NCBI RefSeq assembly: GCF_036373705.1
Contig: NC_089856.1
Coordinates: 2,891,001 to 2,955,000, forward strand
Reading direction: 5' to 3'
From: Amia ocellicauda
Lineage: Eukaryota; Chordata; Actinopteri; Amiiformes; Amiidae
DNA: 64,000 nt
The position numbers and the translations under genes were made by a program. Under the pieces are notes generated by a model. That model had not been told where the DNA came from. It saw nothing but the letters and a program-made list of their open reading frames with translations, and did no database searches. Shown piece after piece: positions 23,357 to 64,000 of the stretch; within the stretch, counting starts at the first letter, position 1; each line of letters opens with the position of its first letter.

Positions 23357-24704
23357 CTCATTCTTCAGAATTTCCCCGGAACAATCCTGTAAGAATGGCT
23401 GGAAGTTCCTTAAGGATTCTTGCACATCTGAACATTTCCCTGCACGTCTCCTTTCACTTTCCCCTTGAGCCGAGACCCAGGAGGCCTGGAGCAGCAGGAA
23501 AATAAAGAACTGATAATGAAGTCGTGTGAGATCATTTCCCCTAAAAAGTAGTACACAATTTATAATGTATTTTTTGGGAGGAATCCTGCAGGGATATTTT
23601 GTGTGGCATAATGTTATGTTTTCTTTGCAAGGCATCCAAATATAGGTCATCAACTTCGCTTAAGGCAGGTGACCATTTTTTCCACACTTCAGACTTGTTA
23701 ATAAGTTGTGGTTAGATCTACGTTCAATACAAACTGTAATTATAGCGCTGTAGTCTTATTTCAAGCCTTACCGAAAAATCGTACAGCGTGTTTAGCCTGT
23801 TTGTTTTTTCCTCTGCAGTAAACCGCAGCCACGCCGAGCGCAGGGCTGAAGGAGTGCAGAGGCACATTATTTTTATAGGTGTGAATGGCTGAAGAAAGCA
23901 AATGCTGAATATTTTGCAAATTGGTAAAGGCCGCAGATACTTTGCAATCCAATGTAGGGCAGTGAGAAAAGCACAGAACCCTTTCACCTGAATCACATGA
24001 CAATAAACACACGACAATGGAGCAAAGGTGTAACTGAGCAGCAGCAGGTTGTTGTTATTATTGGTGTGTATTTATTATTATTACAGGAAGGAGAATTTCA
24101 TTCTGAGCTGCAGAAAATATAGATATTTATCATATGCACTCACTCAAGACAAAGTAGGCCTACCCACTCTCCTGTATTGTTATAATCATCAGGACGTAGT
24201 GGGGAATTTGTCTAGAGAGCAGTCGCACTCTATGTGTTTGTATAATTCTGTGTTTTATTTAAATCATGTTCCTTATTGTGTGTCATTTATTGTGTTTCAG
24301 GTTTGTTCACTCCAGAGCGACCCAGTGAACGCACAGCCGGCAGAACAGCCCTCCCTGCACAACGCTACGATACCGGCTCCCTCTTGTGGTCACACGGGGT
24401 CCATGTAATTCCAAAATAAAGTGCGGAGAAAAAGAGGAAACCTGTAAGCGCTGGACTGGGGCCGGATTGCACACCTCGCCTCTCTGCATTCGGTTCTGCA
24501 GTTTGGGGCGGCGAAACGGGGCCAGAACTGGTTATATCCCAACGCAGGTTATCATTCTACCGGGAAGCTGTGATTTTTTTCCCTTTGCTGATATTTTTGT
24601 GGCAGTTGGTGTCTTTGGCCAGCCCGCTCGTGCCTTCTCTGTTATGAGTGACATTTAAAGGGCTATCAGAACAAACCCCCCTGCAGCCCCCCGAGAGCGG
24701 CAGC

Positions 24705-25874
24705 ATGGAGGTGACGCCCACCATGGTGACCCCCGGGGCCCCGGCGCGGCGGCTCTTGCGCGTCTTCCGGGAGTACCACAACAATGCCATCATCATGGAG
24801 CACTACAACTACACGGGCAAGCTGAGCGGGAACCGGTACAAGGACGGCCTGAAGCCAGAGGCCATCATCTTCCTCATCATCTGCCTGCTCATCGTGGCGG
24901 AGAACTCGGTGGTGCTCATCGCCATCTGGAGGAACAAGAAGTTCCACCTGCCCATGTACTACCTGCTGGGCAACCTGACGCTGTCCGACCTGCTGGCCGG
25001 CTTCACCTACATGGTGAACATCGTGTTGTCGGGGCCCAACACGCTCAAGCTGACGCCGCTGCTGTGGTTCCTGCGGGAGGGCGGGGTGTTCATCACGCTG
25101 GCCGCCTCCATCATCAGCCTGCTGGCCATCGCCATCGAGCGCCACGTCACCATGGTGAAGATGAAGCCCTACCACGGCGCCAAGAAGGGCCGCATGTTTG
25201 CCCTGATCGGCGCCAGCTGGGTGCTGTCGGTCTTCCTGGGGGTGCTGCCCATCATGGGCTGGAACTGCATCGAGTCTCTGGAGGAGTGCTCCACCGTGCT
25301 GCCCCTCTACTCCAAGAGCTACATCCTCTTCTGCATCACCATCTTCATGGCCATCCTGCTGGCCATCACCGTGCTCTACGTCCGGGTCTTCCGCATCGTC
25401 AAGACCAACACGCAGCGCATGGGCACCCTCCGCAAGGGCATGGCCCGTAAGTCCCAGAAGTACATGGCGCTGCTGAAGACGGTCACCATCGTGCTGGGTG
25501 TCTTCATCGCCTGCTGGCTGCCCCTCTTCATCCTCCTGCTGCTGGACTTCTGCTGCCAGGTGCAGCACTGCGAGATCCTGTTCAAGGCGGACTACTTCCT
25601 GGGCATCGCCATGGTGAACTCCCTGCTCAACCCCATCATCTACACTCTCACCAGCCGGGACATGAGGAGAGCCATCCTGCGGCTCCTGTGCCGGCAGTGT
25701 CTGATCTCCAAGGATGGGCAGGTGAAGAAGTTCGGCGTCCCCTTCCTGGAGTGCAGCACCAGCAAGTCAGAGGTCATCTCCCACCGGCTGGAGGGCCTGG
25801 AGACGACGCTGTCCTCGGGCAACGTCACGCCCTCCACCATCAAGGCGCTGTACCCGCGGATCCTGAAGAGCTGA
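24705..25874 (+). CDS. s1pr5: Sphingosine-1-phosphate receptor 5
   Basis: This is a 389-residue class A GPCR for sphingosine-1-phosphate at the plasma membrane, encoded in one exon. The ATG at 24705 is chosen because it follows a CTGCAG acceptor by 18 bases and has a good context. Seven membrane segments lie at about residues 53-75, 85-108, 126-147, 165-186, 206-229, 256-280 and 295-315. Visible family marks are HYNYTGKL (33-40) with a glycosylation site, the Arg-Glu head-group pair (124-125), ERH in place of DRY (145-147), the loop cysteines 188 and 195, CWLP (270-273) and NPIIY (309-313). Cysteines at 329 and 332 could be palmitoylated. HYNYTGKL, the ADYFLGIAM segment and TLTSRDMR match S1PR5 better than S1PR2. 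In human, S1PR5 is next to KEAP1, as here. Couplings known for the family are Gi and G12/13. Confidence 0.93.
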   Translation: MEVTPTMVTPGAPARRLLRVFREYHNNAIIMEHYNYTGKLSGNRYKDGLKPEAIIFLIICLLIVAENSVVLIAIWRNKKFHLPMYYLLGNLTLSDLLAGFTYMVNIVLSGPNTLKLTPLLWFLREGGVFITLAASIISLLAIAIERHVTMVKMKPYHGAKKGRMFALIGASWVLSVFLGVLPIMGWNCIESLEECSTVLPLYSKSYILFCITIFMAILLAITVLYVRVFRIVKTNTQRMGTLRKGMARKSQKYMALLKTVTIVLGVFIACWLPLFILLLLDFCCQVQHCEILFKADYFLGIAMVNSLLNPIIYTLTSRDMRRAILRLLCRQCLISKDGQVKKFGVPFLECSTSKSEVISHRLEGLETTLSSGNVTPSTIKALYPRILKS

Positions 25875-37745: not shown

Positions 37746-40700
37746 ATGTACGCGGTGGCCACGGAGTGCAAGGCCGAGGTGACGCCCTCGACGCGGAACG
37801 GCCACCGCGTCTTCAGCTACACCCTGGAGAGCCACACGGCGCAGGCCTTCGGCATCATGAACGAGCTGCGGCTGGAGCGGCAGCTGTGCGACGTCACCCT
37901 GCGGGTCAAGTACAGCGATCTAGAGGCCGTGGAGTTCGTAGCCCACAAGATCGTGTTGGCCTCCTCCTCGCCCGTCTTCCGTGCCATGTTCACCAACGGC
38001 CTGAAGGAGTGCGGCATGGAGGTGGTGCCCATCGAGGGGATCCATCCCCGGGTGAGTGAGACCCCCAGGACAGGGTTTGGGGTTTGTGGGGGTGGAGGGG
38101 GCGGGGCTTAGAGTTCGCATACACTCATTGGTCCTGATATGCACAGGATATTGACGTGGATTAGGATTGTTGGAATTCTGGGCAAGGGGGGGGAATAAAA
38201 ACTAAACAAAAAGGCGTAAACAAGCTGCTGTCGATCAGTCCTGGTTTCCACCGACACTTAAATAACTCCCCTCCCAGGTGATGGAGCGGCTGATCGAGTT
38301 CTCCTACACGGCCAGCATCTCGGTGGGGGAGAAGTGCGTCATCCACGTGATGAACGGCGCCGTCATGTACCAGATCGACAGCGTGGTCAAGGCCTGCTGC
38401 GACTTCCTGGTGCAGCAGCTGGACCCCAGCAATGCCATCGGCATCGCCAGCTTCGCCGAGCAGATCGGCTGCACCGAGCTGCACCAGAAGGCCCGGGAGT
38501 ACATCTACATGAACTTCAGCCAGGTCAGTGCGCCCGCCCCAACCGGGGAGTGGGGTTCGGAGGGTCTTGCGTGGGGTGGAGACGGGTGTGTTACACTCAA
38601 GCGGAGTACAGAAAAACGGCGTCTGCGGATGTGTTTTTTTTTCTGTGCCACCACTCGGCATAGCTGGAAAGCGGGAGTACGGGACAAAAAACACAACCGC
38701 AGACATCCACACAGTAACGGACGTTTTTATCGCCCTCCCTCGTATCAGACACACCCCTGGATTGCCTCGGTGCCGAATAAACATGGCGCATTGTCGTTTA
38801 ATGTTTCATGTTTTCCTCGTGGGTGTGTTCGTTTGTATTTTGGACTCCAGCGGTTGTGACATCGGTGTTGAAATCTCTCCTCTCCGTTTACCGCCCTGGG
38901 TGGCGGCTCTGCTGAGTCGCGTGGCACTGGGCGTCGAGCACAGCGCCGCAAAATAAGTTCCCACAACCGAGCAGGGCGAGGAAAGACAGACGCATTAGGA
39001 CTTGTGCTTCTCCGAGGCTGTTCTGCCCAGTGGAGTAATATGCCGTGGCAAGTCTCTGCCCCGGGGTTGTTGGCAGCGTTTTCATCTAAATCTGTTTATA
39101 TGCACTGGGTCATTCCGGGCTTTTCTCTGGCCGCCTGCGGACTGTAAGCAGTTTCATTCTTCCCTAAGCTGCAGCCCGTTCTACCCGAAGAAAGATTAGG
39201 CTAAAGCTAGCTCTTGAAAATGTAATTTTATCTGTTTAGGTTTATTTATTGATTATGATTTGCCCTGAAAACACACAGAGCGCACTGCCTTTAAAGGGTG
39301 CGTTTTAAATCTCACTCACCACCCATTCAAAATGAGACTAAATTTTAATGCGCAATAATGCAATGAGACAATTACTGCTATTGCAATAAGTTATAAGTTA
39401 AAATACTTATCTGACACAACAACTTAAAAGACTGTGTTAAACAAACATAAATAATCATTAGGCGATGAAATAGCTTCCTATCAGGAGTCGTACAGGAATG
39501 GCACAATGACAGCAGCAGTAAGTCATCTCTCACGCATCTCGTGTCAGACTCTCGTATTATGCAAGCAGCTGGTATTGTTTCCCGATATTGTCAACATTTT
39601 ATGTTAATTACTATTTCAAATGAACTATAAAGGGTGTGATAATTGTTTTTAAAAGCCACGCTTGCTTATACAATATGGGCGTCTCCCGAAAATGTCAGCT
39701 GGCATGTGTGAACGAGAACTGATTCTATTAGTTTTCATTCAGTAATAGTTTGACGTGAGCTGCGACGCAAATGACTTCACACCGGCGTCCTTGTGGCGAT
39801 GTTTTCCGGTCATAGCGAAATACAAAATGTATTAGTAGACAATCTAGCTACCGAATTTATACAATTCACTTAACTCTTATTATTATAATAATAATAATAA
39901 TAATTATTATTATTATTATTTATTTCTTGGCAGACGCCCTTATCCAGGGCGACTTACAAACAAGTAAACAAATTACTGTTCCACTAGACTGCCGGTCTGC
40001 GCCAAATCAAATCAAACCTGTGCGTTCAAGTTCCAGACAATACACAACATAATGCCTATAGGCAATAGCAGGCTATGTATGTAGCTATAATATGAATGTG
40101 TTTGTTGCTCCTCTCTTCCTTTTGTCATTGCTAGTGTTGCAGGAGGGTGTTTGGCTTTTAGGTGGGTCGATTTGTGGTAGTTTAATTGTGCTGCACATAT
40201 ATTATACTTAATGGTGTCTTAATTTACGTATTTACTTAAGTATTTCCATGCATCATTTTTCTATGAGGAAGCCATCGTTAGTTGACAGACAAGAAATAAT
40301 GAATCCCACCCTCCTGTCAATCTTTATTACCACTATATAGAGAGATACAAATACCATCAATATTTATTTTTTTAGCCACTGAATGTTAGATGCACCTGTC
40401 GCTGTGGCCATCGTTAACGAACAGTTGAATGTCCGACTATTCAGTCTCATCCCTAACTGCCGTACGGCTTTCCCCTCCTTACAAGTATGAGGGCACAGGC
40501 AAGGATGACTCTCTGGCCCATGCGACCGATTCCTACGCATCCCTCTCCCTCTCTCTCTCCCCCCCAGGTGGCGACGCAGGAGGAGTTCTTCAACCTATCA
40601 CACTGCCAGCTCGTGACGCTGATCAGCCGCGACGAGCTGAACGTCCGCTGCGAGTCCGAGGTGTTCCACGCCTGCATCGCCTGGGTCAAGTACGACAGCG

Positions 40701-43700
40701 AGAACCGCCGTCCCTACATCCAGGCGCTGCTGCGGGCCGTGCGCTGCCACTCTCTGACGCCCCACTTCCTGCAGCTGCAGCTCCAGAAGTGCGAGCTGCT
40801 CAAGGGCGACTCCCAGTGCAAGGACTACCTGGCGCAGATCTTCCAGGACCTGACACTGCACAAGCCCACCACCGTGCTGTCCTGCCGCACGCCCAAGGTG
40901 CCCCAGCTCATCTACACCGCAGGGGGCTACTACCGCCAGTCCCTCAGCTACCTGGAGGCCTACAACCCCTGCACGGGCGCCTGGCTGCGGTTGGCCGACC
41001 TGCACATGCCCCGCAGTGGCCTGGCGGGCTGCGTCATCAGCGGGCTGTTCTACGCGGTGGGCGGGCGCAACAACGCCCCCGACGGCAACATGGACTCCAG
41101 CGCCCTGGACTGCTACAACCCCATGAACAACCACTGGTGCCCCTGCGCGCCCATGAGCGTGCCACGCAACCGCATCGGCGTGGGCGTCATCGACGGCATG
41201 ATCTACGCAGTGGGGGGCTCCCACGGGTGCATCCACCACAACAGTGTGGAGCGGTGAGTTTTTCTAACAAAGTGGGGTATTACATGCAGGTAATAAAAAT
41301 GTCCACTATAATGACACTATGGGAGGAGTAGAACTAGATAAAGTAACGCATGAGAAAGACCTAGGAGTCTACGTGGACTCCTCACTTTCTCCATCCAAAC
41401 AATGTGGGGAAGCAATAAAAAAGGCAAACAGAGTGTTAGGGTATATTGTCAAAAGTGTAGAATTGAGCACAAGGGCAGTGATGTTCAGACTGTACAATGC
41501 ACTAGTTAGAGCTCATCTGGATACTGTGTGCAGTTCTGGGCTCCACACTTCAAGAAAGATATCGCTGCTCTAGAGGCAGTTCAGAGGAGAGCAACCAGAC
41601 TTATTCCAGGTCTGAAGGGAATGTCCTACTGAGAGACTGAGGAACTGAACCTTTTCACCCTGGAACAGAGGAGACTACGTGGGGACTTGATCCAAGTCTT
41701 CAAAATCATGAAAGGCATCGACCACATCAAACCATAGGAGCTTTTCCAGATCAGCAGGGACACACGCACCCGGAACACAAATGGAAATTGGGCTTCAAGG
41801 CATTCGAGACAGAAAACAGGAGACACTTCTTCACACAGAGAGGCGTCACAATCTGAACAAACTCCCCAGCGATGTGGCTGGAGAGACAATTTGGGAAAAT
41901 TCAAAAACAGACTGGATAGGATCCTTGATCACTTAGTTATTAATGGACACCAAACGAGCACGATGGGGCGAATGGCCTCCTCTCGACTGGACACTTTTTT
42001 AATGTTCTTATTTCTGACCGGGCACAGCTGATCACAATGGAGGGGATTTGCAGGGCTGGGAAGGGGAAGTGCTGTCTTGACAGCTGGCAGGAGATACTTC
42101 CTCACCAAGCTCGCAAAACCAGAAGTGGGCTGAGTGCACAACCCAGCGAAAACCCACAGCATGAGGAATACGGGAATACAGAGAAGCAGAACAGGGCAGC
42201 CTTTCACTCCGAAATGCACGCAAACACACAAACAGAAACCTGCTGAACTGGGCAAGAGAGGAAAGCCAGGCCCGATTGTCAGAGGTGGTTTTTGTTGTTT
42301 ATGTGGGAAAAGAGAAGCGAGACAGTGATGAAAAGGGAGAGGGGCATGAGAGAGAAAGTGTGCGAGTTCGAGTGGGTGAGGAAGTGAGTCAATGAGCGTA
42401 GGTCAGTGAGTCAGTGTGGGTGTGAGTGGGTCAGTGAGTGTACTGAGCTGGTAAGCTGGGGAAAAGGCCCCCATAGGAAGTAGTTCCTGCTTTATAACCA
42501 CTTCGTCTCACTTCCGGTTCCTCCGTCTCGTTGCGTCTCCAGGTACGACCCGGACAAGGATTCCTGGCAGCTGGTGGCACCCATGCTGACTCGGCGGATC
42601 GGGGTGGGTGTGGCCGTGATCAACCGGCTGCTGTACGCCGTGGGGGGCTTCGACGGCACCAACCGGCTCAACTCCTCCGAGTGCTACAACCCCGAGAAGG
42701 ACGAGTGGAGGACCGTGGCGCCCATGAACACGGTGCGCAGCGGAGCTGGTGAGGAACGGTCCTGTTAAAGGGACACCAAATTGATTTGGGCAGCTCAAGT
42801 GCTCGGGGAGGGGTAAAAAAACCCTGCCCTAACGCCCCAGGGCAAATGAAAGGCAGGCCTGCAATGGTGCAATCTCTCTGGGTATCCTCAAGTGAAAGCA
42901 TGGTGATCAAAGATGAGAACCAGAAGGGAGGATTTGAAGACAGAGATGTAGGCACCGTCATTTCTACTCGGTTAGCTGGGAGACGCTGAGGACGGCCTGT
43001 GGCGCTGCCTAGTGGTGGACACCAGCATTGCAGATGGGTAAAAAGAACGGTTAAACCAGATCTTTAGTTGGCAAACAAGTGGGAATCAAACAGCGGAGGG
43101 TCGGGCCCCTTTAGGGACCTTGAGGTTGAGCTCGAGCTGATGACGTCGGTTGACAGGAATCTTAGCGGCTCAGGACAAGAGTGAAAGCCGCCCCGTGCCG
43201 ACTGTCTGTCTGTCTCCTCAGGCATGTGCGCCCTGGGCAACGCCATCTACGCCATGGGCGGGTACGACGGCACCAACCAGCTCAACACGGTGGAGTGCTA
43301 CGACATCGAGACGGACTGCTGGGTCTTCGTGGCACCCATGAGGCACCGTCGGAGTGCGCTGGGCGTCACGGCGCACCACGGCAAGATCTACGTGCTGGGT
43401 AAGAGCCCCATAAACACATCCCATCACAGCACATCGGCCTGTGATAGTCGGCCCGGATCATTTTCAGGAGTTGTTGTATCGTCATCACTGATACTATGGC
43501 GTTTTTTCACCCAGCCTCGTTAAAGCGCTTTGCAGTAGAGTATTGAAAAAGGCGCTATATTAAATAAAGATTGATTAATCGATCGACAGTAGTAGCATCA
43601 CATCCTCAATCACGAGCCCTGTTTGGCGATTGCAAACCGGGAGGGCGGCGTCACCGATGACCCGCTCACGCTTCTCTCTCTTCTCCCTGCAGGGGGTTAC

Positions 43701-45341: not shown

Positions 45342-46629
45342 CTACCACTCCGTGCTGATCAGACCCCACAGGTAGTCGCTGACGAAGCCCGGAGATTGCT
45401 CTGCCGTGTTGATGTTGATCGGGGTCACGATGTCGCCCCCGTAGTGCACTGGGCAATTGCAGGTTAAGACAAAACGCACTCAGACTTAAATCACTCACAT
45501 TAATTATACATCACTCTACACACACATTTTCCCTCGGCTCGTTCATGACCCCTCACACTTTTTCCCGCCGACCTGCGGTCAAAGGATACCTCCCCGCAGG
45601 ACATGCGGCTCCGTGTCGTACTCCCACTTGATCTTCGTCACCTTGTGGTAGAGCTGGGCCAGATATCTGCAAACCAGAGGCACAGAGATGACGGCGGACC
45701 TGGTTCTCAGTGGCTCCGTTTACATGGAGTCTAATAATCCATTAATCTCTCTCTCTCTGTGCGTGTGTGCATGTGGGTTGTCACGTACATGGCCGAAGGG
45801 ATGACCTCGGTCGTGTCCTCGTCCACCTCGCACTGCAGCGCCTGGATCTCCCTCTCGGTGTCGCGCAGGCTGTCCAGCTCTGTCTGCAGGAACCTGCCGC
45901 AGCGGTCAAGGCACAACAAGGGGGGACGGGAGGAACGGAACGGACCGGTACCACAGCAAACAGCGAGTCAGCACGTGTACAGAGATTGGCCCTGGATATA
46001 GCAGCCCAGCCCTAGCTGTACACCATCCGGATCTCTTTACCATCCCTGTGTAACACCGTTAATGTGGATTAAAAATGAACACCGATAAACCAAAGTCCGC
46101 TATAAACTGCTATTTTTTTGGTTCTAAAACAGCAGGCACTTCTGTTTATTGCGGCTCGTTTTTAAATCCACATTACGGGTGTGAACCACGTTGAAAAAGT
46201 AAGGCCGTGGCAGCGTCACTGAAGGATATTGCAGGTCGGCCTGCAGCGTGTCCCTCCTGGCCGCGCTCTGGCCCAGGTGCCTCTCCATGCTCTCCAGCTC
46301 CTGCAGCACGCGGCTCTTCTGCCTCTCCCGGTCCAGCAGGTCCTGGGCCACCTTCTCCTCGGTGTGCAGCAGATCTGCAGGCAGGCAGGGGTCAGCGCTC
46401 AAGGAATCCAGACACGGCGACTCGAACAGGCTCTCAAAGCTCGACGCGGGCACCTACCCGAGATGAGCTGCGTGGCCGTCTTCTTGGTGTCGACGAGGTG
46501 GTGGAGGATGAGGATCTGCTTCTCCGTGGTGGCCTTCAGCTTGCTCTCAGTGCTGCCGCTGTTGATGCAGCTCAGCAGACACTCGCTCACCTCCAGCAGG
46601 GCCTGGATCCCTTCCTGCACCGACGACAT
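45342..46629 (-). CDS. spc24: Kinetochore protein Spc24 (NDC80 complex)
   Basis: Spc24 pairs with Spc25 at the inner end of the NDC80 complex and anchors it to the kinetochore. Five coding exons on the minus strand: 46629-46458, 46374-46230, 45893-45789, 45666-45590 and 45448-45342. They give 201 residues (human 197). The N-terminal two thirds is a coiled coil (EVSECLLS, TEEKVAQDLLDRE). VDEDTTEVIPSA marks the hinge into the C-terminal globular domain, which ends in SDYLWGLISTEW like the human protein. An untranslated part of the first coding exon extends to 46642, after a TCTAG acceptor. The second intron (46229-45894) and the fourth (45589-45449) have U12-type ends; the other two are ordinary GT-AG. 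The gene converges on keap1. Confidence 0.92.
45449..45589 (-). other. spc24: U12-type GT-AG intron of spc24
   Basis: The 5' end reads GTATCCTTTG, a perfect match to the minor-spliceosome donor. A branch-point-like GTCTTAACC has its second A 16 bases before the exon, inside the narrow U12 window. There is little polypyrimidine tract. The intron is 141 bases and splits codons in phase 1 between LRG and VHYGG. Confidence 0.85.
45894..46229 (-). other. spc24: Probable U12-type AT-AG intron of spc24
   Basis: The exon ends in GACCTGCA and the intron starts ATATCCTTC (8 of 9 bases of the U12 AT-type donor). Near the 3' end CCTTGAC matches the U12 branch point, with its A 13 bases before the exon that starts at 45893. 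Splicing here gives LQADLQFLQTELDSL, which keeps the coiled coil. The competing ordinary option (GTGACG at 46219 with an acceptor 10 bases further downstream) would put YPS into the coil. Confidence 0.65.
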
Positions 46630-50034: not shown

Positions 50035-51820
50035 GTGCGTAATTGCGCAGCGCGGTTCTGCTGTGCGCTCTCAGAAATGCGTTATAGATACTGTAACTTC
50101 GTCTGTGTGTTTTATTCCTGCTTCACACAGAGGGCGCACTAGCTTTAATCGTTTTGACAAAATGCACGCTCAATCAATGAAATGAATACTATCTAATATA
50201 ACCTGAGCGTAAAATGTACAAAACGGTCCCTCGGCAGTGAGAATGTTTGTGAGCAAATAATACTGCCATCAGTGTTTAACTGGAAAAGTACAAGAAGGGT
50301 ATTTTAAATGAAAGCACTCCAGATATATTAGCTACCTGGGTGTAATATGAGATACCCAGCTAAGAAATCCACATGGAAATAATATTTAAAAAGTGACCAT
50401 ATTTGTGGAAAGTGTACAAATATCACGGTGGGGGGAACAAGTTGTCTCTTCTCAAATCCTAATGACGGATTCTCCTGAAGACTGTATTTAACTGTGTATC
50501 ATGTTAATCCCCGCGACCCCGCCTGTCTGTCTCTGTATACCACCACAGTAAATTACAGTCGGTGAAACTGCGGATTAGCAGGGTTTACAGCAGGTATGCT
50601 GTTTTTCATGGGAAGGCGTTTAAGATCCGAGTTTCATAAGACCTGCCCAGAATCACTCATTGGTAAGGAATAGGCAGGAGACAGGCTGCCACGTTTTACA
50701 ACTCCCACTAATATATGCATCCCTTATGAACTTAGCCATAACCCAAGTCCCAGGCTTGAACCTCAACTAAGGTCTGCACTAAACGTGAGTAGAAATGCCA
50801 TGGAAGTGTTCCAGCTCTGCTAAGACCAAACTGAAGAGGAGACACAAAAACATCTTTCAGTCGCTCTTACCTTCTTTAAGTGTAGATAATGCAGGCTCCT
50901 ATCTAAGCACACACAGCAGGAATTGTATATCTCCAGGTTATCTTCTTCTCATGCAAGTTTGCATACAGTGGGGATTCTGCTGCTAAAACAATATGAACTG
51001 AAAAGCTCTCTACACTCATCAGCTCAGAGCCTGCGGGGGATTGCTGTGCAAAAAGGAGTCTTAGGTTTGTAACTTCAGCGAGCATCTCCTATCAACCAAT
51101 AGCCTGATTGTACAGGATGCACTGAAACTGAAGGCACACTGCAATGACGCAGCCCTTGTTGTAGACAAAGTTAATAGACTTTTGCTCCAGGGCAGTTGTG
51201 CATTAAACATCTGTATCTCGAACACCGGAAAGCAGCAGGTCAGTGAGCTGAAGCTGTGACTATCAGTGTTGGCAGCAGCGCAGTGAACTGTTTTTCTGTC
51301 GTCTCCAGCCTGAGAATTGGATACAAATCGGTCTTGGTAATCTCGTCCTGTGTTTTGCCGGTCTCGCACTACAGAAGGCTACTTTTGTGGCCCAGCTGAA
51401 AGAACAGCTTGTAATTCAATGCCCCAGTGGTGAGATTCATGCTCCTGCAGGTGTGGTTCAACTTGTTTTTCAGCTCAGAGGGATACTAGGGGGAAGAAAA
51501 AAAAAACAAAAGGCCCCACAGCTGATGAACTGCTTGGGAAAATGGGCCTTGCTAATCCCATATTCACACCCTTGAGAGCTAAAAGGAACTACTGGCACCC
51601 GTTCACGGCCGTGAACTACTGAATGAGCCGAAACATTTCTGTCCGGGGTGCGAGTGGTGTTTTTCTGTGTAGGACGGCCCTGAATCGTAAGGATTGTAAC
51701 CCATCAGCACCTGTCACAGACCATCGAACTATTATATATATATATATCTAATTGATTTAATTGATTGGTTTACAATTACACACCACTAATGCCTCCTTCT
51801 TAGTCTCTGGCACTTTCGCT
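50035..51820 (+). other. Probable 5' intron of lrrc8e, no features seen
   Basis: Non-coding sequence with a short AT microsatellite near 51733. No other feature was recognised. Confidence 0.35.
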
Positions 51821-52026
51821 CATAAGAACATAAGAAAGTGTCCAATCGAGAGGAGGCCATTCGCCCCATCGCGCTCGTTTGGTTTCCATTAATAACTAAG
51901 TGATCAAGGATCCTATCCAGTCTGTTTTTAAATGTTTCCAAATTGTCTCTTCAGCCACATCGCTGGGGAGTTTGTTCAGATTGTGACGCCTCTCTGTGTG
52001 AAGAAGTGTCTCCTGTTTTCCGTCTT
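51821..52026 (-). mobile_element. 3' end of LINE, reverse orientation
   Basis: On the plus strand, CATAAGAACATAAGAAAGTG followed by TCCAATCGAGAGGAGG is the reverse complement of the 3' end of the element at 13196-14180. It extends back through the CTGGGGAGTTTGTTCAGATT block. It abuts a CT microsatellite. Confidence 0.85.
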
Positions 52027-52089: not shown

Positions 52090-55000
52090 ATGATCCCTGT
52101 GACCGAGTTCAGGCAGTTCACGACCGATCAGAACCCCCGGCTGCGCGTGCTGAAGCCGTGGTGGGATGTCTTCACCGAATATATCTGCACCGCCATGCTG
52201 ATGATCGGCGTCTTTGGCTGCACGCTACAGGTAGGAGGCTTCTACAGAGTCTACTTTGGCTTGAGGGAAGGCATATTAAGCACCCTCTGGCTGGCATCAT
52301 GGGGGCAGGCCTGCTGGGCAACTGGGATGTTTGAGGGCCTTCGTTTGTGTGGATGAATGGAGACGCATAACAGGGTGTCACGTGTACCCGCTCCCAGATG
52401 CAATCGTTTTCAAAAGCACAAAAGGAGTTTGCCTTGGTTCTTGTTTTTTTTTTTCGTCGGTTTTTCTCTTTGTAAATACGCTCACCCCTCCCTGTGACAC
52501 AATAGAGAGAAGATAAATAGTAGCAACTCCTCCCCTTTTCTGCATTTGTGAGAGTGTGTGGGTGTGAGAGAGAAAGAAATCCCCCTCCTTGTATTTGTCA
52601 AAGTCGCAATGCCTTTCTTCCTGGCGGTGCCGGTCTGAGCAACTGTGATTGCCGCTCCCTTCTCATACTGGAGGGCAAAGGACCCGCTGTTTACAGAGGG
52701 AGTGGGGGGGATGCAGCATCCACTATCACAAAGGGCCGTTTCTCTAAAGCTGGCTGTGGGCTTGGAGCAAATGAAGCCAGAGTACTTGGGCCTGAACCCT
52801 AGTCTCCAATCAGGACATTAAGTCCATAATGTTGCTGAACAGGCCCTGAAGGTATATTGGATCGGAGGAAGGCTTTTGGTGTAGATTTAGAAAGTTTCCC
52901 CCCACCCCGTCTACCAGAAGTTCCAGCCCTTCCCCCTCCTGTCGGTCAAGTTAGCTGACAGGTTTTTGAACGAACGAAAGCAAGGTCACATTCGAGATAA
53001 AGGTGTCCAGGAGAGCCACACTTTGATTGGACGTTGTTTAATCTCCGGGGACGTCAGGGGACGAATGGGGAGGCTGACATTGTGAAACATAGTCTTTCGG
53101 GACTCTGATTAAGAACTTTCTGAAACTGTTTGTATCAATTCTGTACATGTACACAGTGTAATGCAGCAATCTCTCTCTCTCTTCCCCCCTTCTCTCTCAC
53201 TATCTCTCTCTCAGCTGACTCAAGACAAGATCGCATGTCTCCCAATCCACCAGTCTGACCCCTACCTGAAAAACACCACCTGCAATCACATCACAGGTCA
53301 ACACGACCACTCCGGCGCGCCGCACATGAGCGCAGACTCGGGGGTCCAGGAGATGTTCGGCCGGAAGAACAACCTGGACGTCCACCAGTACATCTACGTC
53401 AACTACCTCTGCTACGAGAAGGCCCTGCACTGGTATGCCAAGTACTTCCCCTACCTGGTGGTCATCAACTCCATCATCTTCATGATCTGCAGCAGCTTCT
53501 GGTTCAAGTTCCCCGGCACCTCCTCCAAGATCGAGCTCTTCATCTCCATCCTGGGCAAGTGCTTCGACTCCCCGTGGACCACGCGGGCGCTGAGCGAGGT
53601 GTCCGAGGAGCGCAAGGAGGAGAAGATGGTGGTGTGGCGGAGGGATGTCTTCTCCAAGACCAACTCGCTCACCGACGGGCTCGTCCAGGAGGAGGAGACA
53701 GTGGGCCTGCTGCGCTCAGCCTCGACCAAATCCAAGGCCGAGAAGAAGCTGGCCGAACAGCCGCCGGACACCTCCGCGCTGGACAAGAAGGAAGGGGAGC
53801 AGGCAAAGGCGCTATTCGAGAAGGTCAAGAAGTTCCGCAGCCACGTGGAGGAGGCTGACATCCTGTATTTCATGTACGTCCTGCAGACGTGCCTCAAGGT
53901 CTTCATGGTCATCCTGATCATCATCTATAGCGCTGTGCTGGTGTCGAACATCAAACTGGAGGTGCCCTGCTCTGTGGACGCACAATTCACCGGCTTTGAC
54001 ACCTTCTGCTGCAGCCACACCAAGGCCCACCTCTTCGCCAAGCTGGCCTACTGTTACATCTGCCTGTTGAGCGTCTATGGCTTGGTGTGCTTCTACACCC
54101 TGTACTGGCTCGTCCACCGGCCCCTGAAGGAGTACTCCTACGACACCATGCGCCTGGAGACTGGCATCACCGATATCCCCGACTTGAAGAACGACTTCGC
54201 CTTCCTGCTGCACCTGAGCGACCAGTACGACGCCCTGTATGCTAAGCGCTTCGCCGTCTTCCTGTCGGAGGTGAGCGAGGGCCGGCTGCGGCAGATGAAC
54301 ATGAACAACGAGTGGACGGCAGAGAAGCTGCGCCAGCGGCTGAGCAGGAATGCGCAAGAGCGGCTGGAGCTGCACCTGCTGATGCTGTCCGGGCTGCCCG
54401 ACACCGTCTTTGAGATGGCCGAGGTGGAGGTGCTCAAGCTGGAGCTCCTGACCGAGGTCACCATCCCCGGCAGTGTTGCCCAGATGAGCTGCCTACAGGA
54501 GCTGTGCCTCGTCCACTGCCCTGCCAAGCTGCAGTTGGCCGCCCTGCACCACCTGCGCTCCAGCCTCAGGGTCCTGCGGCTCACCTTCGACGGGCCGGAG
54601 CAGGTGCCCATGTGGATGTACACTCTGCACAGCCTGGAGGAACTGCACCTGACGGGGTCCCTGAGCCATGAGCTCCAGCGCAGCCCCTCCCTGGACACCC
54701 TGCGCGAGCTGCGGAGCCTCAAGCTGCTGGTGCTGCGCTGCCGGCTGCCCAAGGTCCCGCACAGTGTGACGGACGTCGGCGCGCACCTGCAGAAGCTGCG
54801 CATCTACAACGAGGGCGGCAAGCTGCACTCCTTCAGCAGCCTGAAGAAGATGTCTGCCCTGACGTCACTGGAGCTGGTGGGCTGCGAGCTGGAGCGCATC
54901 CCCCACGCTGTCTTCAGTCTGGCCAACCTGCAGGCGCTAGACCTGAAAGACAACCGGCTCACCTCAGCCGAGGAGGTCCTCAGCCTGCAGCACTGCCGGC

Positions 55001-55500
55001 GCCTCACCACGCTCAAGCTGTGGCACAACGGCATCACCTGCGTGCCCGACCACATCCGCAAGCTGCGCTCCTTGGAGAGTCTGCACCTGTGCTGGAACAA
55101 GATCAGCAGCCTGCCCGCCGGCCTGTTCTACTGCGTCAAGCTGCGCCACCTGGACCTCTCCCACAACCTCCTGGCCAGCCTGCCGCCCGAGGTGCGCATC
55201 CTCCAGAACCTGCAGTTCCTCTCGGCGGCCCACAATGCCCTGGCCTCCCTGCCCGATGAGCTCTTCTCCTGCAGGCGGCTGCAGACCCTGCTGCTTGGCC
55301 ACAACAGTCTGTCCTCCCTCTCGCCCAAGGTGGCCCAGCTGACCCAGTTGGTGCAGCTGGAGCTGAAGGACAACGGGCTGGAGGCGCTGCCGCCCGAGAT
55401 CGGGGAGTGCCGGCTGCTGAGGCGCAGCGGCCTCGCAGTGGAGGACACCCTGTTCGACCTCCTGCCCGCCGAGGTCAGAGCGCAGATGAAGGACAGCTGA
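52090..55500 (+). CDS. lrrc8e: Volume-regulated anion channel subunit LRRC8E
   Basis: LRRC8E is an accessory subunit that combines with LRRC8A in hexameric swelling-activated anion channels of the plasma membrane. Coding exons are 52090-52230 and 53215-55500, joined in phase 0, for 808 residues (human about 796). The start [16 protein letters not shown] is typical of the family. Four membrane segments lie at about residues 21-45, 123-144, 271-293 and 320-347. The first extracellular loop has cysteines 55, 70 and 113 and a glycosylation site at NTT (67-69). The [19 protein letters not shown] block (237-255) is diagnostic of LRRC8 proteins, and leucine-rich repeats fill about 430-800. [39 protein letters not shown] and the ending [17 protein letters not shown] match LRRC8E better than LRRC8A. 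Both acceptors sit on CT-rich simple repeats. Confidence 0.93.
52231..53214 (+). other. lrrc8e: lrrc8e coding intron
   Basis: The donor is GTAGGA and the acceptor is a CT-rich run ending TCTCTCAG. No embedded gene was seen. Confidence 0.8.

Positions 55501-58491: not shown

Positions 58492-64000
<5,509 letters not shown>

Follow-up and report, generated by a model that had tools for sequence, protein, structure and literature searches.

Which spliceosome removes the second intron of spc24 in Amia ocellicauda, and at which junction, is the question raised by this locus. The reading that leaves the protein intact has an intron that starts with AT and ends with AG, and a GT-AG intron nested inside it likewise preserves the protein length. 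After the alternatives are weighed, the locus is best read as a candidate U12-type (minor-spliceosome) intron of the AT-AG subtype, with a probability of roughly 0.8.

The spc24 gene and its surroundings

A complete spc24 coding sequence was rebuilt by script on the minus strand at 46629-45342, comprising five exons of 172, 145, 105, 77, and 107 nt (stop included) and encoding 201 amino acids. The parts of the gene are as follows:

46458..46629, minus strand: exon 1, coding part, ATG at 46629 (sequence reconstruction)
46375..46457, minus strand: intron 1, U2-type, GTAGGT...CAG, 83 nt, phase 1 (sequence)
46230..46374, minus strand: exon 2 (sequence reconstruction)
45894..46229, minus strand: intron 2, proposed U12-type AT-AG, 336 nt, phase 2 (motifs and junction enumeration)
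46221..46229, minus strand: putative U12-type 5' splice site ATATCCTTC (read from sequence and motif scan)
45905..45911, minus strand: putative U12-type branch site CCTTGAC, A at 45906 (sequence and motif scan)
45882..45883, minus strand: acceptor AC used by the in-frame AT-AC rival, at a distance of 24 nt from the branch A (junction enumeration)
45789..45893, minus strand: exon 3, AT-AG junction version (sequence reconstruction)
45667..45788, minus strand: intron 3, U2-type, GTACGT...CAG, 122 nt, phase 2 (sequence reconstruction)
45590..45666, minus strand: exon 4 (sequence reconstruction)
45449..45589, minus strand: intron 4, proposed second U12-type, GT-AG, 141 nt, phase 1 (motifs)
45342..45448, minus strand: exon 5, coding part through the stop (sequence reconstruction)

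Judged by its domain and by its match to a solved Spc24, the encoded protein is Spc24 of the Ndc80 complex. The AT-AG reading, which was the one scanned, matched the Pfam Spc24 family (PF08286) with an E-value of 2.5e-16. Residues 11-201 of the same reading aligned without gaps to the Spc24 chain 8ppr_F, which we take to be human Spc24, with 138.5 bits and an E-value of 2.6e-39. Among the five chains matched by this reading, 8ppr_F is the only one that covers the intron 2 junction.

Elsewhere in the window, by which we mean the whole stretch of 64,000 nucleotides analysed, ten further open frames were picked from the ORF list and scanned with Pfam, and five of the ten matched at E-values up to 1e-4:

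24648-25871: 7tm_1 receptor (Pfam), presumably an S1P receptor
38266-38856: BTB and BACK (Pfam), which we take to be keap1
40457-41254: BACK and Kelch (Pfam), assigned by us to keap1 as well
53113-55497: Pannexin-like region of LRRC8 and leucine-rich repeats (Pfam), presumably an LRRC8 gene
60140-60646, minus strand: Kri1_C (Pfam), which we assume to be kri1

An Rfam scan of the window returned one snoRNA, the C/D-box snoZ30 (RF00288; 59911-60006, minus strand, 74.1 bits), which lies near the Kri1_C stretch on the same strand and is probably intronic. No tRNA was found in the window by an ARAGORN scan. Similar peptide fragments occur on opposite strands at 41738-42031 (plus) and 51786-51950 (minus), and these two stretches resemble the remains of a single repeat family, perhaps a retroelement family.

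Splice signals and junction of intron 2

The donor of intron 2, ATATCCTTC at 46229, matches the pattern [AG]TATCCTT, and a CCTTRAC-like branch site is found at 12 nt, within the optimum of 11-13 nt for the distance from branch site to 3' end in U12-type introns (PMC3584512, excerpt). The distance of 12 nt is measured from the branch A to the final base of the intron; the 13 given in the initial annotation takes the first base of the following exon as its end point. The intron closes with GCGGCAG, whose AG terminates at 45894. By eye, no pyrimidine-rich stretch extends from the branch site to this AG, and one lies immediately upstream of the branch site. The initial annotation had placed an AT-AG intron at 45894..46229 and regarded its AG, instead of AC, as the mark of a rare U12 subtype; both ends were recovered where it had put them, and AT-AG has been listed as A-type alongside AT-AC, AT-AA, and AT-AT (PMC8280824, excerpt).

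To define the possible junctions, all stop-free and frame-keeping GT-AG, GC-AG, AT-AC, and AT-AG combinations were enumerated with the last exon base at 46250-46206 and the first at 45915-45871. Among the 12 junctions obtained, only the AT-AG junction, which reads FLQ, and the nested GT-AG junction, which reads YPS, preserve the length of 201 amino acids. Eight GC-AG junctions and GT-AG 46219-45878, all among the 12, alter the protein length, and pairing the AT donor with the acceptor at 45884 breaks the frame.

The nested reading supposes a major-spliceosome GT-AG intron at 46219-45884, shifted 10 nt inward at both ends. It is canonical, in frame, and of equal protein length, it has a pyrimidine-rich stretch upstream of the CCTTGAC branch site, and its 137.5 bits against 8ppr_F lie only 1 bit from the 138.5 bits of the AT-AG reading. 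However, with a U2 matrix, its donor TCA/GTGACG scores -4.2 bits, compared with 4.0 for intron 1 and 2.1 for intron 3, another AG ends 10 nt ahead of its acceptor, and the precise U12 signals are left unexplained. It also sets a proline at a coiled-coil core position. In a simple heptad count, made with no trained predictor, the AT-AG reading scores 7 and 8ppr_F scores 6 with the best register common to both, whereas the nested reading keeps the register with P in place of the L and scores 5. The earlier claim that the AT-AG splice keeps the coiled coil agrees with the gapless alignment and the shared register. The proline expected of the ordinary alternative does arise, but by a swap of FLQ for YPS at equal length rather than by an insertion, and the end at 45882 that had been given for that alternative is incorrect, as the nested intron ends at 45884. 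The poor donor and the core proline appear to be stronger arguments than the alignment, and the nested junction is considered very unlikely.

Position 45882 belongs to a separate alternative, an AT-AC U12-type intron with unchanged donor and branch site, whose protein would be four residues shorter (LQADLQELDSL). This rival is stop-free and in frame, AC is said to be preferred with a 5' A (PMC4176328, excerpt), and AT-AC is the common A-type ending. Its score on the NUF2-SPC24 chimera 2ve7_C is slightly higher (99.2 bits, with 98.9 for the nested and 98.3 for the AT-AG reading), but these scores say little on the junction, because the match begins at residue 118 of the AT-AG reading, past the junction. 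Against it, the branch A would lie 24 nt from the end, roughly double the published optimum (PMC3584512, excerpt), and a nearer AG at 12 nt would be bypassed. Its alignment to 8ppr_F takes a four-residue gap and falls to 132.4 bits, a loss of 6 bits, and the heptad register is shifted and lost, with a score of 3. An AT-AC splice is therefore regarded as very unlikely. Two further alternatives concern single bases. If the initial A of the intron underwent A-to-I editing, AT-AG would be converted to GT-AG, a change with a precedent in two U12-like human introns, in NUP210 and CRYZL1 (PMC4176328, excerpt); against this, the first intron A is predicted to be unpaired, in an internal loop flanked by two 6-bp stems, and the predicted folds contain no long duplex around it, so that editing seems highly improbable. 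An assembly error or a rare allele that shows C as G at the final base of the intron would mean that the species normally has an AT-AC intron ending at 45894; a single substitution there would indeed be enough for an ordinary AT-AC intron whose spacing is ideal, and we give this explanation a very small probability.

The U12-type AT-AG reading is preferred because it is consistent with the donor, the branch site, the 12-nt spacing, the reading frame, the length of the protein, and the heptad register. The U12 AT-AG interpretation of the initial annotation is supported in this respect, while the in-frame AT-AC rival and the minor intron proposed below for intron 4 had been overlooked. The motifs, distances, frame, and protein fit can be read directly from the DNA, and on these grounds cells very probably splice intron 2 as AT-AG. 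From established knowledge, the U11/U12 di-snRNP would bind ATATCCTTC and CCTTGAC together, and U11 would be replaced at the donor by U6atac. The nearest AG, 12 nt beyond the branch A, would serve as the acceptor, joining CTGCA to GTTCCTG, and the product would carry the unbroken coiled-coil reading LQADLQFLQTELDSL. As intron 2 would be A-type, the tri-snRNP protein CENATAC is expected to be required for its removal.

Intron 4, motif frequency, and predicted folds

Intron 4 carries the donor GTATCCTTT, a TCTTAAC branch site (45469-45463), and a CAG end; the distance from the second A of TCTTAAC to the final base of the intron is 15 nt. Scored as a U2 donor with the matrix used above, its 5' splice site reaches -0.6, and the 8ppr_F alignment is gapless across the intron site. 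Intron 4 is proposed to be a consensus GT-AG minor (U12-type) intron. Two of the four spc24 introns therefore look minor, one A-type and one G-type, and the presence of the same motifs in intron 4 is counted in support of intron 2 as a minor intron.

The chance level of these motifs was estimated from 60 first-order Markov sequences for the 64-kb window on both strands. The donor pattern [AG]TATCCTT occurs three times in the window (15186 plus, 46229 minus, and 45589 minus) against a simulated mean of 2.8, and there are 15 instances of [TC]CTT[AG]AC followed by an AG at 9-18 nt, compared with a simulated mean of 18.5; by this comparison, the minor-intron motifs alone are not rarer in the window than expected by chance. 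The window contains three donor-branch pairs with a spacing of 60-2000 nt, compared with a simulated mean of 0.48 and with none at all in 38 of the 60 simulated sequences, and one of the three combines the intron 2 donor with the intron 4 branch site. With the bare motifs at chance level, the evidential weight comes from their position. Of the three donor motifs, two begin where a frame-keeping exon of spc24 ends, at boundaries that the protein requires, and each of the two has a branch motif in its own intron at the right distance from the acceptor, although the exon boundaries were set with knowledge of the motifs and the enumeration of alternative junctions covered intron 2 alone.

The end of exon 2 is predicted to fold into a small stem; beneath it, the donor core UCCUUC is paired with bases from further upstream in the exon (46260-46215, minus strand). 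The fold energy of this exon end has a z-score of -2.05 over 46 nt (matched by 6 of 200 shuffles) and of -1.63 over 101 nt (matched by 13 of 200). Base pairing of the intron 2 donor core in the predicted folds was counted against the AT-AG reading, as were the pyrimidine-rich stretch upstream of its branch site and the chance-level frequency of the motifs. In intron 4, too, the donor core is predicted to be largely paired, in a fold no stabler than shuffles (z -0.02), and donor pairing is therefore not special to intron 2. Within intron 2 lies a 130-nt hairpin element (46053-46182) with 23-nt inverted arms that are 87% complementary, which looks like a MITE-like, small inverted-repeat transposable element. 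Any role of the donor pairing or of the intron hairpin, viewed from one sequence, would be speculation.

Minor introns in SPC24 and a possible link to chromosome segregation

Human SPC24 has been named as a minor-intron gene, one of the younger ones and part of the core essentialome (PMC6865273, excerpt), and mouse Spc24 is one of four mitotic minor-intron genes that are alternatively spliced upon U11 loss (PMC8034651, excerpt). The same gene is thus named as minor-intron-containing in human and mouse, and the excerpts of these two papers do not state the intron ends, which intron is concerned, or whether there are one or two. AT-AG ends appear to be disfavoured (PMC3584512, excerpt). Among orthologous minor introns of animals, about 3.8% have non-canonical ends, most often AT-AA and AT-AT (PMC10639083, excerpt), and ends other than GT-AG, GC-AG, and AT-AC account for 2.7% of the zebrafish and 5.2% of the human minor introns (PMC7367187, excerpt). 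Intron 2 shares with the AT-AG subtype of A-type (AT-AN) U12 introns the ATATCCTT donor, the CCTTRAC branch site, the short distance from branch site to acceptor, and the AG end; no anatomical difference was seen. Genes with two minor introns number 50 in human and 50 in mouse (PMC6717393, excerpt), and spc24 likewise has two introns with full minor signals. SPC24 was already known as a minor-intron gene, and intron 2 probably adds an AT-AG member to a known class.

At least one match to U11 snRNA exceeds the family cut-off in the same genome (988 Mb, 385 contigs), with 103.5 bits, among the 39 of 61,688 first-look candidates that were scored. Depletion of CENATAC affects 92% of A-type versus 24% of G-type minor introns, and its loss leads to AT-AN intron retention and chromosome segregation errors (PMC8280824, excerpt). 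This makes a kinetochore gene that carries an A-type intron a natural candidate target; SPC24 itself occurs zero times in the main text of PMC8280824. A more far-reaching proposal is that spc24 holds a conserved pair of A-type and G-type minor introns, that the output of the Ndc80 complex is gated by CENATAC at intron 2, and that a donor-masking hairpin at the end of exon 2 acts as a further brake. Taken as a whole, this proposal is very unlikely to be correct. If true, a CENATAC-gated spc24 would provide a direct link from A-type minor splicing to chromosome segregation.
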